Virus record (IMG/VR): IMGVR_UViG_3300020390_000076
Coordinates: 1-38,664 of that record
Direction: 5' to 3' (one strand)
DNA: 38,664 nucleotides
Origin: a virus
The notes below the pieces were generated by a model that worked only from the letters and a program-made list of their open reading frames with translations, did not search any database and had not been told where the DNA came from. Numbering within the stretch: position 1 is the stretch's first letter; every line of letters starts with the position of its first letter. This document shows, piece by piece, positions 1,206 to 36,999 of the stretch. The translations under genes were made by a program, and so were the position numbers.

Positions 1206-1854
1206 TGTCTATACCCCATGTTGTAGCAAAGTGATCGGTTGCAAGACCGTGCGCTTCGACAATTTCGGCCTTTGTGCATTCAACCATCACCCCTGTGGCC
1301 ACATCTGCCGTTGACCACGGAATAATGTCATTTTCGGCAAGCTGCCAATGTTTAATGAGCGCGTTAGCCATGCGGGTAATGCTTAGCTCGTCGGCATCAA
1401 ACTTTTTACCTGTTGAAATTTGTACCACTGCATTATTAATCTGGTTTTGTCTTTGCAGTTTAAAAATAGTAACTTTGTACGGTTCAAGTATGTCATCCGC
1501 CGTTCTTACTGCAGGGCGGGTGGGTGCAACAGGTAATGGCTTAGGTTCAACCTCTGTAACACTGCCATCTTCATTTGCTACTGGCGCGGGCAAGTTTTCG
1601 TTGTATTCCTTGACGTTGTTTAGTTCGACTAAATAGTCAAAGTACTCTTTAGCCCAAACGTACTGCTCACGCTTTGATTGCAGTTCAGCAAATAGGGTTA
1701 AGTTATCAATTTTGCCCTTGGCGATTAGTTCGGGTATGTCTTTAACGCTCACCGGCCCTTGTAGCAAAGTCGGTAAACCTTGCTCGTCAACTACAGGGTT
1801 TTGTTCGGCGTCGAGTTCGATGAACTCTAAAATAGGGTTTAGTTTATTTGTCAT
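1192..1854 (-). CDS. Tail-fibre-associated protein with DUF4376-like region
   Basis: A protein of 220 residues. The N-terminal half is acidic and contains a proline-rich linker near residues 88 to 116. The later part holds KKFDADELSITRMANALI, which resembles the DUF4376 domain (FDADE...RMA.AI) found on phage tail-fibre accessory or assembly proteins. It overlaps the 3' end of nothing but its start lies 11 nt inside the end of the tail-fibre gene, so the two are translationally coupled. The likely role is fibre assembly or a small tip adaptor. DUF4376 itself has no settled function, so only the association with fibres is firm. Confidence 0.65.
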   Translation of the reverse strand: MTNKLNPILEFIELDAEQNPVVDEQGLPTLLQGPVSVKDIPELIAKGKIDNLTLFAELQSKREQYVWAKEYFDYLVELNNVKEYNENLPAPVANEDGSVTEVEPKPLPVAPTRPAVRTADDILEPYKVTIFKLQRQNQINNAVVQISTGKKFDADELSITRMANALIKHWQLAENDIIPWSTADVATGVMVECTKAEIVEAHGLATDHFATTWGIDSGTN

Positions 1855-4750
1855 TTTTAATCCATCCTAGTGGTTCTACGCAACGGGCCGTGCCAACTAA
1901 AACAGTGTGACCATTCTCGTCTGGCATTGTTGTTTGCTTATCTGCGATATGAATTTTGCTATCATCACCCCAATCACCCGCCGTTGCATCGTAATGAAGC
2001 TCGGCGTAAGCGTAATTAATGAAGCCTTGTTGGTTATCTTTCGTGTTGTAATTCAATGCCTTAAAAGCAGGGCTGTTGTTGCTCGGCGCATCTAATCTCA
2101 GGGGTGAGTGCCTTAATTCACCGGCAGACTTATTAAGACCCCAAAGTCTTGCTGTTGCGGGTATTGCGGGTAAGCTATTCAAGAAAAGAGTCTCAACACC
2201 TATTTTGTCAGCATTAGCTAAATGAGTTTGTATTAGCCCAGTAAGCGAGTAATTTAGAGCTCTCCCTTTACTGTCAGATGCATCCATTGAAGTGAATAGG
2301 CAATCAACATCAGTAACACGACCATGTACATCTGTTACAGCATAGGGAACTGTCATCTTAGCTTTTGTTTTGTAGTCAATGATCCTGATCTGACCAAGTG
2401 GAAAGTTTTGAGAAATCTCGCCTTTTATTGCATCAAAGGTAATACCTGAAACTCCCCAACTAGCACCTTTGTTATCTGAAAAAATATGTTTATTAGTTGA
2501 AATGTATGGTTTAGAGCTCCTGTAAGACTTTATTGTTCCATCGGGTATTTCAGGATTCCAACTACCAACCCATCCCTCTTTTAGTGCGTCACAAAGTAAA
2601 ATATCAGCGGGTGCGCCAAAAACTTCTGTATGGTCGTATTCATCTGAAATTGATATATTTTCGTCCTTTGAAACAACCACATAAGCAATTGATTCTAAAT
2701 TTTCTAGTGTCTCATTAGATATAAAACCAGTCACACCAACAGTGCCAACTATTGATGATTGCACCACCCCATCACTGGAAACCACATAGAATCTTGTGCC
2801 CTCTGTTACCAAAGAACCTAGGGTAGAGTCTGCTATATATATGTTTCTAGATGAACCTGTGGCCGTCAATGAGCCCTGTACTATGCATGTCCTTAATAGC
2901 TTCTCCATGCCTCGATATTTACCGGACTTAATTTTTAGATCTGCTTCAGCAAAGTCTTCAGCTGTTAAGCCCCAAGAAGAATAACGCATATCACGACAAA
3001 CGCCGCCTTGACCACTGACACAGATACCATCGTGATAACGACCATCTGGTCTGCCAGATCTACTACCAACAATATTGCCCCTAGGATCTGAAAGTACAAA
3101 GCAAGATGCAGGATTATTTGCTAAACCTGACTCGAACGGATTTGTTCCATAAGCTCCTCCTGAACTATACCAAAATGAATCATTGCCGTTACTGTTACCA
3201 TTAGCGTCCAACAAAGATATTCTGGCACTGCCTAAATGATTGAAGCCGGGGTGGTAACTACCTTTATTTAGTCGAAGATCTGTACCGAAAATATACAGGT
3301 AGCATTGATTATCAATTGCTTTGTCAGTATTTGTGGGGTGATCTCGTAAAACCCTTATGCCGCGATCAACACTTCTATTCAATCCTGCGAAGTCCACATT
3401 AGGATCAACGAATACTTGCGCATACTCTGTACCATTATCATTATTATAAGCGGCATCATTATTACTAACTCCTTGCGCTCTTATACGTGTATTATTACTT
3501 TTTGATGCCGCAAATTGAGGGCCTGAAGAGGAAGGTGTTAAGTCAAGCACCGCCCAATCCCCATTACCCTTACCGGCGAAACTACGCCCACGAATACACC
3601 ACTGGTAGAACTTACCCGTTTCATCATTAAAATAAATATGGTTCTTACGATCACTTGCTATTGCAATACGTTGTGCTTCTGTTGCTGTTTGCCAATTTAC
3701 ACCTTTACCCCGACTATTTTTGTCACCCGAATACCAAGCAAAATATTCGACAGGTCGCGTGTTATCAGTAATTGTGGGTACACCACTGATATTTGTAGCC
3801 AAAGATTGAATGATACCGTTTTTATAAATAAAGGGGTCATCATCATTAATTTCACGCAAAAAACCCTCAAAAGTGCGAATATCCACACGAGCTGTAACGA
3901 CTTTATTAGTCGCTGTCTCACTGGCGAAAGCTAAAGTGGGAGTAGCATGTGTTCTAGATTCACCTGTGGCGCTATCATAGGTTCGTGTTCCATCTTCGGC
4001 AGGTGGTAATTTGATTTTATTTAACAAGTCTTTATTGGAGCTTGAAAGATATTCGAGTTCAGTCTCAACACCTGCTATTACTATCCTAGGGGTTCCCTGT
4101 TTAGAATTTCCAATAGCACTACTGTTCAATGATCCGATAAATAAATTGTTAGCGGCTTCACTAGAGCCCAAATTTGGCGAAAATAGTGAATCAATATATC
4201 CATTATTCCAGTTATCAGTATATCGCTTGCCTTTATATACAAAGCCACTCGCTGCAAACTTTTCATTATTTGCTGCTCGCATGGCCTCAAATTCAGCCTT
4301 GCGCATGGCCCATGGATACGGGTGATACGCGTTCATCTGGGCTTGGTTATCGGCTTCAATTTGCTTGAGGGTTTTGACTGTTGTAGTAGTACCATCTGAT
4401 TTTTTAAATGTTACTGTTCCTAGGTTGTTTTGATAATCCTGCAGGGCTTGCTGATTATCGTTAACAAGAATATTGGCATCTTGAAGCGCTTTAACCGCAG
4501 CACGAAATTCGCCGCTTGTCGGAATAACAATCGCCGGTTGGTTATTTTGGGTTGTTAGCTCCCACGCTTTAGTAAGTTGTATAAACTTTTGGCCTTGGCC
4601 ATTCTTATAAGCTTGTTTAATTTCAACCAGTGGAAAACTGCCGATTTGTAAAAAATCACCGGCTTTGATGTTCTCGATACTTTCGGCGCTATTTACATCA
4701 ACAACATCTTGGCCGTTTAGTACGCTGACTGACTGTGCAGTAAATGCCAT
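1844..4750 (-). CDS. Tail fibre / receptor-binding protein
   Basis: A protein of 968 residues. The N-terminus (about 1 to 180) is globular followed by a helical stretch, including a Tyr/Pro-rich YHPYPWAMRKAEFEAMR motif common in phage fibre proteins that hang from a tip. The middle contains a YFAWYSGDKNSRGKGVNWQT-type segment and a FYQWCIRGRSFAGKGNGDWA patch. The remainder is rich in Gly, Asn, Ser and aromatic residues, as in trimeric beta-structured fibres. It follows the tip attachment gene by 17 nt and precedes the DUF4376-like gene. Role as the main host-range determinant is inferred from size, composition and position; no enzymatic motif was recognised. No reverse transcriptase or template repeat suggests a diversity-generating system. 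Confidence 0.75.
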   Translation of the reverse strand: MAFTAQSVSVLNGQDVVDVNSAESIENIKAGDFLQIGSFPLVEIKQAYKNGQGQKFIQLTKAWELTTQNNQPAIVIPTSGEFRAAVKALQDANILVNDNQQALQDYQNNLGTVTFKKSDGTTTTVKTLKQIEADNQAQMNAYHPYPWAMRKAEFEAMRAANNEKFAASGFVYKGKRYTDNWNNGYIDSLFSPNLGSSEAANNLFIGSLNSSAIGNSKQGTPRIVIAGVETELEYLSSSNKDLLNKIKLPPAEDGTRTYDSATGESRTHATPTLAFASETATNKVVTARVDIRTFEGFLREINDDDPFIYKNGIIQSLATNISGVPTITDNTRPVEYFAWYSGDKNSRGKGVNWQTATEAQRIAIASDRKNHIYFNDETGKFYQWCIRGRSFAGKGNGDWAVLDLTPSSSGPQFAASKSNNTRIRAQGVSNNDAAYNNDNGTEYAQVFVDPNVDFAGLNRSVDRGIRVLRDHPTNTDKAIDNQCYLYIFGTDLRLNKGSYHPGFNHLGSARISLLDANGNSNGNDSFWYSSGGAYGTNPFESGLANNPASCFVLSDPRGNIVGSRSGRPDGRYHDGICVSGQGGVCRDMRYSSWGLTAEDFAEADLKIKSGKYRGMEKLLRTCIVQGSLTATGSSRNIYIADSTLGSLVTEGTRFYVVSSDGVVQSSIVGTVGVTGFISNETLENLESIAYVVVSKDENISISDEYDHTEVFGAPADILLCDALKEGWVGSWNPEIPDGTIKSYRSSKPYISTNKHIFSDNKGASWGVSGITFDAIKGEISQNFPLGQIRIIDYKTKAKMTVPYAVTDVHGRVTDVDCLFTSMDASDSKGRALNYSLTGLIQTHLANADKIGVETLFLNSLPAIPATARLWGLNKSAGELRHSPLRLDAPSNNSPAFKALNYNTKDNQQGFINYAYAELHYDATAGDWGDDSKIHIADKQTTMPDENGHTVLVGTARCVEPLGWIKNDK

Positions 4751-11238: not shown

Positions 11239-13353
11239 TTACAGTGGCTGATCTATTAACTCTTGCATATCTGTGGCTATGCGGTTTCTATTTGCTTGGT
11301 ACCAATCTTCAAATCCTGAAGTGTCCATAGCGCTTATGTTGAATTGAGGGGAAATATGAACTTCGCGTGGTGTAGTCTTTTGTCCAGCGCTTCCATTTAC
11401 AAGTATGTTTGGACTTAAGCTTTGCCCTTTAGTGTGATCTATGACAGTCTCCTGAGGGTGAAGCATGGCTAACTGTCCGCCTTTACCATCTAAACCGCCA
11501 GTTCTCGGCCCATCCCATGTATAACCACCGCCATCAAAAGATGCTAAGCCTGTTACTTTTCCCGCATACATAGTACCCGCGGCAATAACTACACCTGCAG
11601 CAGCTGCACCAAGCACAGGACCAACATAAGGAATACTTGCCAATGCGTTATAAGCTTTCATTGCTGTATCGTAGGTATTCGTCCAGATGCTTTGCAATGA
11701 GTTTCGTTTTTCTTCATCCAGCATAGTCTCCCCAAGTGATATTGCCGTCTTTGCATAGCTCGCGTTTTTTCCTTCCATGCCATCAAAGTACCCACCCATC
11801 ACATCAAGCAGGCTTGAATATCCTTTCTGCATTGTCTTATTCCGCTCAGACTCAGCAAGAGCTAACTTATCTTGATGCTCTTTTTCTTTCTGTTCTCTAA
11901 GCGCTAATTGCTCATCTTTTATCTCGGTAATTCGTTGCTCATGTTGTGATACGGCAAGTTCCTTTGCCTCTGTATATTCAGCCTCGATTTCAGCTGTTAT
12001 AAGGTTCTTCTCTCGCAAAAGCTGAAACTCACGCTCCATTTCAGCTTGCTTACGTTCAAATCGCTGATTTTCAAGTTCAACCTCTTTGCCATCAGCTTCT
12101 AACTGAGCATCAAATATTTGCTGATACTGGTTACGTGCTGACTCAATTAAGCGCTGCGCTTTTTCATCCACCACGGCAGGATCACTTTTAAGTAATAAAT
12201 CGCTTAAATCTTTCTTATTCGGATTATTTACTTGCTCTTGCGCTGCTGCTTCAAACTTAGTTTGTACATCAGCAATCCATGTTTTTATTTTTTCTGATGG
12301 CATTGGCTCCATGGCCAAGTCGCCCAGCTCTTTCGCCAAGCTATCGGTTGTTTGCGATACAGACTCAGCAAATAAGTTTATTTCGTCGAGTGTATCTGTA
12401 TCAAAGCCGAGTGCATCACCAATTTTCCCACCGATTTTTGAACCTACAGTGCCTATTTGAACAATACCATTCACTAATTCGGCCATCGCCTGGCGAACTA
12501 ATAAAAATGTTACTTGTAGGCCTCGTCCCATATCAGATAAAAATCCAATTCCTGACGCTACTTTTGTGACAACTTGCTGCGCTATTGAACCAAAACCACC
12601 GGCTTCTTTGGCTGAGTCTGTCCACATATCTGAAATAGCACCGATAATCGGCGCTGTTTCTATCGCCAATGTTTGACCAAAGCTGTGTGTTGTTTTTTGC
12701 GCCTTGTCGAATGCATCATTCGCCATTTCAACTTTAGCTGCATCGATGCGATCAAATGTCATGCCTAAGTCTTCAGCTTCTTGCATCATGGCATTGATGC
12801 CATCAGCGCCAAGTTCTAGGGTGTTAAGTAGTTTTACCCCCTCAGAGTCAAATAATTTTTGTGTTGCCGCTACTTTTTTGCCCTGGTCGTCAATATCCTT
12901 CATTTTGTCGGCAATTAACGCAAACTGCTGATCTGGGCTTTTCCCTTCAAGTTCATCAAAGGTAAGGCCAAGCATATCAAGGCCTTTCTTAGCCTCTGCG
13001 CTTTGTTCGCCTATTCGACGGGTCATACGCTGTAAACCCATATTCAAAACTTCTGTACTAGCCCCAGTTTGTTCTGCTGCGTGTTGTAAGCCCCCAAGTG
13101 CTTGCGTTGTGATGCCTAACCTGTCAGCTGTTTTTGCCTGCATATCAATAAATTCAGCATTTTTAGCATAAATTGAGGCATACGCAGCAACACCGGCAGC
13201 ACCAAAGCCCACTAACGTTTTGGTACTAGTGCCCACTAACTTGCGGGTTTTGTCAGCCCACGACTTAGTGTTTTTATTGGCTTTTTTCAATTCAGCCGAC
13301 AACTTGCCACTTTTACCGATCAAGTCGATAGTGAGTGTTGCAATTGATGACAT
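11239..13353 (-). CDS. Tape measure protein
   Basis: A protein of 704 residues. The N-terminus has SAELKKANKNTKSWADKTRK and a hydrophobic Gly/Ala-rich segment, followed by DMQAKTADRLGITTQALGGL, which is typical of phage tape measure proteins. A long coiled coil spans about 395 to 500, and a small Gly/Ala-rich membrane-like segment (about 575 to 605) follows. At roughly 0.15 nm per residue it would set a tail of about 105 nm. It lies directly after the frameshifted chaperone genes, as is usual. Its ATG starts 2 nt after the stop of the -1 frame extension. Confidence 0.92.
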   Translation of the reverse strand: MSSIATLTIDLIGKSGKLSAELKKANKNTKSWADKTRKLVGTSTKTLVGFGAAGVAAYASIYAKNAEFIDMQAKTADRLGITTQALGGLQHAAEQTGASTEVLNMGLQRMTRRIGEQSAEAKKGLDMLGLTFDELEGKSPDQQFALIADKMKDIDDQGKKVAATQKLFDSEGVKLLNTLELGADGINAMMQEAEDLGMTFDRIDAAKVEMANDAFDKAQKTTHSFGQTLAIETAPIIGAISDMWTDSAKEAGGFGSIAQQVVTKVASGIGFLSDMGRGLQVTFLLVRQAMAELVNGIVQIGTVGSKIGGKIGDALGFDTDTLDEINLFAESVSQTTDSLAKELGDLAMEPMPSEKIKTWIADVQTKFEAAAQEQVNNPNKKDLSDLLLKSDPAVVDEKAQRLIESARNQYQQIFDAQLEADGKEVELENQRFERKQAEMEREFQLLREKNLITAEIEAEYTEAKELAVSQHEQRITEIKDEQLALREQKEKEHQDKLALAESERNKTMQKGYSSLLDVMGGYFDGMEGKNASYAKTAISLGETMLDEEKRNSLQSIWTNTYDTAMKAYNALASIPYVGPVLGAAAAGVVIAAGTMYAGKVTGLASFDGGGYTWDGPRTGGLDGKGGQLAMLHPQETVIDHTKGQSLSPNILVNGSAGQKTTPREVHISPQFNISAMDTSGFEDWYQANRNRIATDMQELIDQPL

Positions 13354-13355
13354 AG

Positions 13356-13930
13356 TTAAGCTCTCTTACGTTGGCGCCAAGGGCAAGTGTTTAAAAATGC
13401 TTCTGTTTCACGTTGCTTCTTGTTTTGTTCGATTTTGCGCTGCTCTGAACGGTCGAACGTTAGCCCCATATTTAGCCCTTGGTGGACTAAACGGAGCTCT
13501 AGTTCTTCTGCCGGCAAACGTGAATGTAATTCGTAGATAGAGCAACCTAAGTTATCTGCTAAATTGCAGAGCGCATGTAACTCAGGTTGCTTTTTTAGTT
13601 TTTTTCAATAGTTTCAAGGTTATCTTGCGATAGGTTTGTGAAGAACAAACCGGTTGTGTGGATCATACCAAGCTGATCAACATCCATTAATTGCGGAAGT
13701 TTTGCAGCTTCTTTGTCATCATACTTACCATGGAGCATGTAATAGGTGTTTCGTTGAGCTATTTTTTCTAACTTTTTAGGGTCTGCGTCTTTATCGGTAA
13801 ATAACTCTCTTGCTTTAAACTCATCGTTTGCCGGCAATCGATGTAATTCAATCTTACCGACCCCTTTTACGTCAAATACACGGGTAGACGTAGCAAGCCT
13901 ACCCGCCATAATATCTGCGGCTGTAATCAT
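13356..13930 (-). CDS. Tail assembly chaperone GT-type frameshift product
   Basis: This is the -1 frame fusion of the 111-residue G-like protein with an extension of about 80 residues ending at 13356. Read after the slip at AAAAAAC, the frame goes CTA AAA AAG CAA CCT GAG and stays open to TAA, ending CPWRQRKRA. The extension has no start codon of its own that makes sense, and it stops 2 nt before the tape measure ATG. In lambda and many siphoviruses the G and GT proteins load on the tape measure and recruit tail tube protein. The extension is too short to be noticed as a stand-alone gene. Confidence 0.88.
13542..13604 (-). promoter_or_regulatory. Programmed -1 frameshift element
   Basis: The slippery heptamer A AAA AAC is in the zero frame at 13604..13598, directly before the G stop codon TAA. 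Seven nt later a 13-bp stem begins (13590..13578 with 13554..13542), perfect except for one G-U pair. A 5-bp hairpin TCTGC/GCAGA is nested in its loop (13555..13570). Heptamer, spacing and stem are a textbook -1 signal. Confidence 0.92.
13595..13930 (-). CDS. Tail assembly chaperone G-like protein
   Basis: A protein of 111 residues that ends EKN at a TAA immediately after the slippery site. It contains VKGVGKIELHRLPANDEFKA and resembles the small proteins encoded just after the tail tube gene in siphoviruses. It is the major translation product; a fraction of ribosomes shifts to -1 and makes the longer GT form. The start ATG overlaps the stop of the tail tube gene (TAATG-type overlap). The role in tape measure folding and tube polymerisation is known from lambda and is inferred here from position and the frameshift. 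Confidence 0.85.
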   Translation of the reverse strand: MITAADIMAGRLATSTRVFDVKGVGKIELHRLPANDEFKARELFTDKDADPKKLEKIAQRNTYYMLHGKYDDKEAAKLPQLMDVDQLGMIHTTGLFFTNLSQDNLETIEKN

Positions 13931-35648: not shown

Positions 35649-36983
35649 CTACTCTTTTGACTTAGCTGCATCAATAGCATCCTGTGTAGAATAGTTTGAA
35701 ATGTACTCACTAAAAATTGCTTGGACTCTTGGTAAACAACTTGGACAAATGGCTATTGGATTCTTGGTGGTGTATTTCATTTCATCCAAGCTGAATATGC
35801 CACTACATGATGAGCATCTGTAAGAGTATTCGACACCTCTACCAAACAGCATTCTTGCTCTGATCATGTCAAATGAATACCCTCTACCAATTCGGTTATC
35901 GAGCCTGGTTAAGTTGTTCATTGATTCAGTAAATGCGTTGGTTACATTGGTATCAATCAAAGCAAAGATTTCATCACGCCAGTTATCGGTTGCCTTTACC
36001 AATGAAGCAAAAGCCTTAGCAACAACACCTGTTAATCCAGATTTCCATTCATCATATGCCGCTTCTGCGTCTGCACGCACTTCATGTTCAAATATCGCGT
36101 AGTAGGATTCTTTAGCATTATAAGCTTGCTCTATAGTTGGTTCGTTTTTAAGCCAGCCATCCAATGCTAGCCACTGCTTATCACTAAGGTTGTGGTTGCG
36201 CTTTCTGAGGATGTAAGCGCCACGTTTATAGCTAATCCTTCCTCGTTTGTTTAGTTTGCTTTGTTGTTGCTTTCGGACGGTATCCACGGCCTGATTAGCC
36301 ATTCTTACAACGTGAAACTTATCTATGACTACTTGTGCATCTGGGAGTATGGCATTAACTGCTGTCTTATATCCGCGCCACATATCAATGGCAACGTACT
36401 TCACATGTTCTTTGTGTGGAAGATTGCTAAGCCACTGCTTAACAAGCTCTACGTTTCGATTTGGAAGCATATCAATAAGCTTCTTGCGGCCAATGTCTGT
36501 AAATACCGCTCTAGGCTGCTTAATCAGATGAATCTCGTCAATTCCTAAGATGTCTGGCGCTACTATTCTGTACGTGTTGCTTACTCGCTCCAAATGCTCA
36601 CCTACAATCAATCGAACGGTTTTTTCGTCAATACCTATTGAATCCGCTATGCTAGTGAATGTCTGACGTAATGCTTGCTTTTCAATGTAATCAACACACC
36701 GCTTTGTAATGCGTCGTTTAGGATCTATGTCAGGATTAGGCTGGATAAATGTCTTTTTGCACGCACGACACTGATAGCGTTTCTGAATAAGCCTAATTAT
36801 AGTCGGAACCATCCTTAGCGGGAGATCTACCACATCTATTGTCTTTGTACCATGGCGATACAATTCCCCAACAACACCGCACTTAGTACAATGATCTGGC
36901 TCTACAATATAGGATGCCTCTACTTCGCAATGATCAACACTCTCTGAAAACTTAGATACGGTCCAGCTTTCACCGAAAAACAT
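35649..36983 (-). CDS. tnpA: ISL3-family transposase
   Basis: A protein of 444 residues from ATG 36983; a TTG at 36995 would add 4. It has the N-terminal zinc finger CTKC...CRAC (Cys32, 35, 72, 75), a helix-turn-helix (about 110 to 125) and a DDE catalytic set: Asp149 (GIDEIHL), Asp200 (AIDMWRGY) and Glu353 (NAFTESMNN). This is the ISL3 layout. An unusual extra zinc ribbon (Cys390, 393, 413, 416) closes the protein. The gene is intact and probably active. It ends 4 nt from the integrase stop codon. Confidence 0.95.
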   Translation of the reverse strand: MFFGESWTVSKFSESVDHCEVEASYIVEPDHCTKCGVVGELYRHGTKTIDVVDLPLRMVPTIIRLIQKRYQCRACKKTFIQPNPDIDPKRRITKRCVDYIEKQALRQTFTSIADSIGIDEKTVRLIVGEHLERVSNTYRIVAPDILGIDEIHLIKQPRAVFTDIGRKKLIDMLPNRNVELVKQWLSNLPHKEHVKYVAIDMWRGYKTAVNAILPDAQVVIDKFHVVRMANQAVDTVRKQQQSKLNKRGRISYKRGAYILRKRNHNLSDKQWLALDGWLKNEPTIEQAYNAKESYYAIFEHEVRADAEAAYDEWKSGLTGVVAKAFASLVKATDNWRDEIFALIDTNVTNAFTESMNNLTRLDNRIGRGYSFDMIRARMLFGRGVEYSYRCSSCSGIFSLDEMKYTTKNPIAICPSCLPRVQAIFSEYISNYSTQDAIDAAKSKE

Positions 36984-36999
36984 ACTGCTACTCAACCGC

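Follow-up and report, generated by a model that had tools for sequence, protein, structure and literature searches.

A very probable programmed -1 ribosomal frameshift of the lambda G/GT type in a Pseudoalteromonas-type prophage

In the stretch of viral DNA analysed here (the window; 38,664 nt of IMGVR_UViG_3300020390_000076), the junction of the tail genes G and T on the minus strand carries a signal that is very probably a programmed -1 ribosomal frameshift of the lambda G/GT type, its occurrence and rate being inferred. That shifting occurs, and that it is ribosomal, we infer from the anatomy of the junction, its conservation, covariation in a downstream stem, coding selection on T and a link between T and gpT proteins. 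A reading made from the sequence alone had proposed a -1 shift joining a tail-chaperone pair, and this proposal is strongly backed by relatives that keep heptamer, T frame and stem, and by a T start that resembles the gpT domain; its term "textbook" suits the layout and, to a lesser degree, the heptamer, A_AAA_AAC.

These phages are a new set in which the well-known lambda G/GT arrangement occurs; its evolutionary support is unusually good, and it brings no new principle. The pair is a divergent G/GT pair that escapes Pfam and PHROGs, and its frameshift stem is clearly supported at the sequence level by covariation, strand-specific G-U pairs and synonymous constraint. The junction provides a clean test bed for the behaviour of A_AAA_AAC in bacteria, and enables annotators to join G and T in such phages.

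The provirus and its G/T junction

The window is a siphophage provirus that has an integrase and, in the customary order, genes for HK97-type capsid, portal, ClpP-like protease, terminase, tail terminator, major tail protein, tape measure, distal tail and tip. Viral contigs are its closest relatives; the one that bears an organism name lies in Pseudoalteromonas prydzensis, and the window is a prophage of a kind present in this marine bacterial genus. An ISL3-family transposase (35649-36995, minus strand) adjoins the integrase end and is possibly host flank or an insertion, and a 968-aa protein beside the tail tip gene (1844-4750, minus strand) has as its sole match phrog_14489, of unknown function (E 1.3e-139).

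G lies between the major tail protein gene and the tape measure gene, and T, read in the -1 frame, immediately precedes the latter, whose 704-aa product (11239..13353, minus strand) matches phrog_9483, tail length tape measure protein (E 2.3e-77). All features of the junction are on the minus strand. Gene G, assigned as a tail assembly chaperone by its position and its conservation in relatives, runs from ATG to TAA at 13595..13930 and has a 0-frame product of 111 aa. The slippery heptamer A_AAA_AAC occupies 13598..13604, in phase with G (GAA AAA AAC TAA), and is directly followed by the 0-frame stop TAA of G at 13597..13595, as had been described; directly 5' of it, translation of the -1 frame gives a TGA stop at 13605..13607. 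Because these two stops flank the heptamer, a switch of frame in this genome is possible only on the heptamer itself.

The -1 extension T (13356..13604) comprises 82 codons from the start of the heptamer, 80 of them after the shift, and stops at TAA 13358..13356; the ATG of the tape measure gene follows 2 nt later, at 13353. The frame of about 80 codons and its end point were thus correctly described from the sequence. The GT fusion is predicted to have 191 aa, with NLETIEKN joined to LKKQPELHALCNLADNLGCSIYELHSR (LKKQPELH) at the predicted junction, and the heptamer's final base doubles as the opening base of a T codon (Leu/Ile). A second run, A_AAA_AAG at 13596..13590, is in phase for another slip in the -1 frame; it is not conserved in relatives and was dropped as a candidate second slip site.

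Downstream of the heptamer, a 7-nt spacer (TAAAAAA, 13591..13597), the last A of which can pair with U 13541, leads to a main stem of 13 bp with one G-U pair and a possible additional A-U at its base, formed by the 5' arm GCAACCUGAGUUA (13578..13590) and the 3' arm UAACUUAGGUUGC (13542..13554). A 7-nt bulge on the 5' side (13571..13577) separates the 5' arm from a nested hairpin, UCUGC-AAUUUA-GCAGA (13555..13570), which stacks directly on the main stem. The stem and nested hairpin reported earlier, 7 nt after the heptamer, are thus present, with a minimum free energy of -25.6 kcal/mol. No match near any gathering score was found in Rfam, and a search for a pseudoknot between the bulge or loop and downstream sequence gave scattered short complements and no consistent partner.

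Equal stability is reached in only 2 of 3861 60-nt windows of the minus strand. Moreover, the listed minus-strand genes contain 62 in-phase X_XXY_YYZ heptamers, and at none of the others is the downstream fold as strong as at the G/T site, or the -1 frame as long where the fold is strong. Synonymous recodings of the region average -11.7 +/- 3.5 kcal/mol, with 1 in 1000 as stable as the real sequence (z -4.0), and the stems of seven relatives score z -1.8 to -4.7 against their own synonymous recodings. The combination of heptamer, stem and -1 frame is not due to chance.

Conservation and covariation in relatives

Relatives were collected by scans with G and with T, yielding 17 distinct junction sequences (20 rows) in which T ranges from near identity down to 33% identity; the annotated phage collection yielded none, whether searched with GT or with the T of one relative (L052). 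All 17 distinct sequences have an in-phase A_AAA_AAC or A_AAA_AAA, an open T frame and a stem at the same place, although the stems of L042 and L052 are weaker; loss of stem or heptamer in close relatives, which the sequence-only reading had named, together with lack of a fusion peptide, as what would speak against it, was seen in none of these sequences. Several relatives, L048, L051, L052 and L053 among them, were found by the T protein alone, so that in the distant members the phase of the G frame, the upstream signal and the base pairing amounted to a blind prediction, which held. In L051 and L052, G reads on for several codons to a different stop, and a G stop adjoining the heptamer is therefore not essential.

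The conserved run of A residues also bears on RNA polymerase slippage, by which an A added on A7 in some transcripts would join G and T through transcription. The run has 7 A (8 in L048 and L053), and one inserted A would produce the same fusion frame. However, slippage by bacterial polymerase is described on runs of 9 A or T, and the stimulatory stem described in the nascent RNA is 5' of the run (PMC5009743), whereas the run here is shorter and its stem lies 3', where it is still untranscribed while polymerase is on the run but can be met by a ribosome. Runs of A7 are, furthermore, common in the window, and slippage is very unlikely to account for the junction.

For covariation, the structure of the window was imposed on an ungapped alignment that is fixed by the T codons and not fitted to structure. 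Standard pairs fill 95.4% of the alignment cells, and six of the 19 pairs are altered on both sides, compensatory changes of the kind that an alignment with relatives had been proposed to reveal; at the pair in columns 18-60, A-U, G-U, G-C and U-A all occur. Sliding the partners lowers pairing to 28-45%, RNAalifold alone predicts nearly the same structure, and 0 of 500 shuffles reach any of five covariation measures, a count that is not a probability because the sequences are related. As the stem lies within conserved coding sequence, its invariant pairs prove nothing, and the weight is carried by variable pairs and synonymous tests. Synonymous change is depressed in the stem codons (pS 0.42-0.45, vs 0.62-0.78 in windows beyond the stem). 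Covariation, recodings and depressed synonymous change together indicate an RNA structure a few nt 3' of the heptamer that is kept by selection.

The strand on which this structure acts can be read from the pairing, since the sense strand pairs in 308 of 323 cells vs 269 of 323 for the antisense strand, and 42 cells hold a sense G-U vs 3 that hold A-C, which is G-U on the other strand. By this measure the stem folds and has evolved as sense RNA. The same asymmetry argues against an intrinsic terminator for antisense transcription, suggested by the + strand, on which the inverted repeat is followed by a T-rich tract (stem, then TTTTTTAGTTTTTTT). That tract is the complement of heptamer and spacer, the spacer part of which is not conserved, and no + strand gene is evident there; the terminator scan does not list the repeat, but with a loop limit of 8 it could not have reported this stem. 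A terminator is hence a highly improbable source of the repeat.

T itself evolves under protein selection (pN/pS about 0.2). Separate T-like ORFs are annotated in some phage genomes, e.g. those of Vibrio phages, and T could in principle be made alone from its own start codon, with no fusion; yet its frame has no ORF of at least 60 aa beginning with ATG, GTG or TTG, its first Met lies mid-T, and the conserved heptamer and stem would be left unexplained, which makes independent expression hardly credible. A sequencing error that removed a base from a single G-T gene, as commonly happens at homopolymer runs, has negligible probability, given that the same break, phase and heptamer recur in relatives from independent assemblies and that G in L051 and L052 ends at another stop.

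Family links of G and T

Neither G alone nor T alone matches a Pfam or PHROG family, and a PDB sequence search with G gave no match. The predicted structure of G is too poor for comparing folds (pLDDT 54) and that of T better (pLDDT 80), and fold searches with both models returned nothing significant. With three T proteins, Pfam Phage_TAC_11 gave matches short of the threshold (E 0.02-0.12), which were not used; a search of 114 genomes of the class did not find the family.

The T profile of this family aligns with the gpT proteins of L076 (viral contig IMGVR_UViG_3300020045_002380) and L059 at 97.1% probability over 41 columns that cover only T residues 1-41. The T proteins of both match PF06223 Phage_tail_T (1.1e-12 and 6.5e-16), and for the G proteins of both the match is phrog_344, tail assembly chaperone. 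L076 was detected with the T profile; it additionally has a phrog_337 match in T and resembles the window in its T N-terminus, its downstream structure and a junction that reads A_AAA_AAC directly before the stop (TAG); it differs in the full Phage_tail_T domain of its T and in its phrog_344 G, for which no similarity to the G of the window was detected. The G of the window is clearly homologous to that of L052 (99.4%) and only marginally so to that of L053 (67%). From these comparisons the N-terminus of T and the shift site appear to be common to more phages than G is.

Compared with the window over 13356-13604, L053 and L076 look as if G on one side, and T plus the shift site on the other, had been exchanged separately. 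L059, a relative with a full Phage_tail_T domain, has at its G/T junction (about 1498-1510) a run of nine A and then a G (AAAAAAAAAG), with a weaker downstream fold, and polymerase slippage could contribute there.

Proposed mechanism, efficiency and known systems

Under programmed ribosomal frameshifting, the majority of ribosomes would stop at the TAA of G and release the 111-aa chaperone, while the stem 7 nt downstream would slow a minority at the moment when AAA occupies the P site and AAC the A site. These slowed ribosomes would move back by one base on A_AAA_AAC and translate 80 further codons, producing a GT fusion of 191 aa. If lambda is a guide, the tape measure protein would be bound both by G and by the G part of GT, the T part would recruit the major tail protein, and the ratio of G to GT would matter; a lambda-like assembly role for both products is the most likely one here.

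The likeness to lambda G/GT lies in the order of major tail gene, G, T and tape measure, in T occupying the -1 frame, and in a -1 shift near the end of G. The lambda heptamer is G_GGA_AAG and so ends in AAG, whereas the heptamer here is A_AAA_AAC and is followed by a long covarying stem. Moreover, T is short here and has only its first ~41 residues in common with gpT-type proteins.

The high efficiency that had been expected from the length and regularity of the stem is not supported, because stem length alone does not set the rate and A_AAA_AAC performs weakly in E. coli, where it shifts much less than A_AAA_AAG (PMC5009743); bacterial ribosomes tolerate re-pairing from AAC to AAA less readily (PMC4066793). 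Signals of the lambda and HK97 types operate at a few percent: the ratio of G to GT product in lambda is near 30:1 (PMC5009743), and two HK97-like tail chaperone frameshifts were measured at 6-7% (PMC3711429). The group keeps the weak A_AAA_AAC or A_AAA_AAA, with A_AAA_AAG in none of the 17 distinct sequences. A doubtful suggestion is that an unusually strong stem on this weak heptamer sets the G:GT ratio, or that the ribosomes and tRNA-Asn of the marine hosts shift on AAC more readily than their E. coli counterparts. A simpler reason would be that the last base of the heptamer is kept by protein constraint on T, as part of its Leu/Ile codon.

The HK97-like chaperone frameshifts (PMC3711429) involve the same kind of gene pair in HK97-type siphophages, but G here has no detectable sequence link to PHROG or Pfam chaperone families. 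A_AAA_AAC has been annotated at the tail chaperone G/T junctions of phiCbK (gp93/gp94; PMC3556154) and HCTV-2 (PMC5009743), and possibly of Dragolir (PMC6003738); phiCbK and HCTV-2 belong to other virus lineages, and their likeness to the present phages is one of heptamer and junction.

Some Vibrio phages have the N-terminus of the tape measure in common with the window but another G/T pair, without this unit of heptamer and stem. In two of them, PhiPS02 and K303 (L056 and L057), the G/T pair is annotated as two hypothetical proteins, and the G of PhiPS02 has a AAAAAAAG run at its end.
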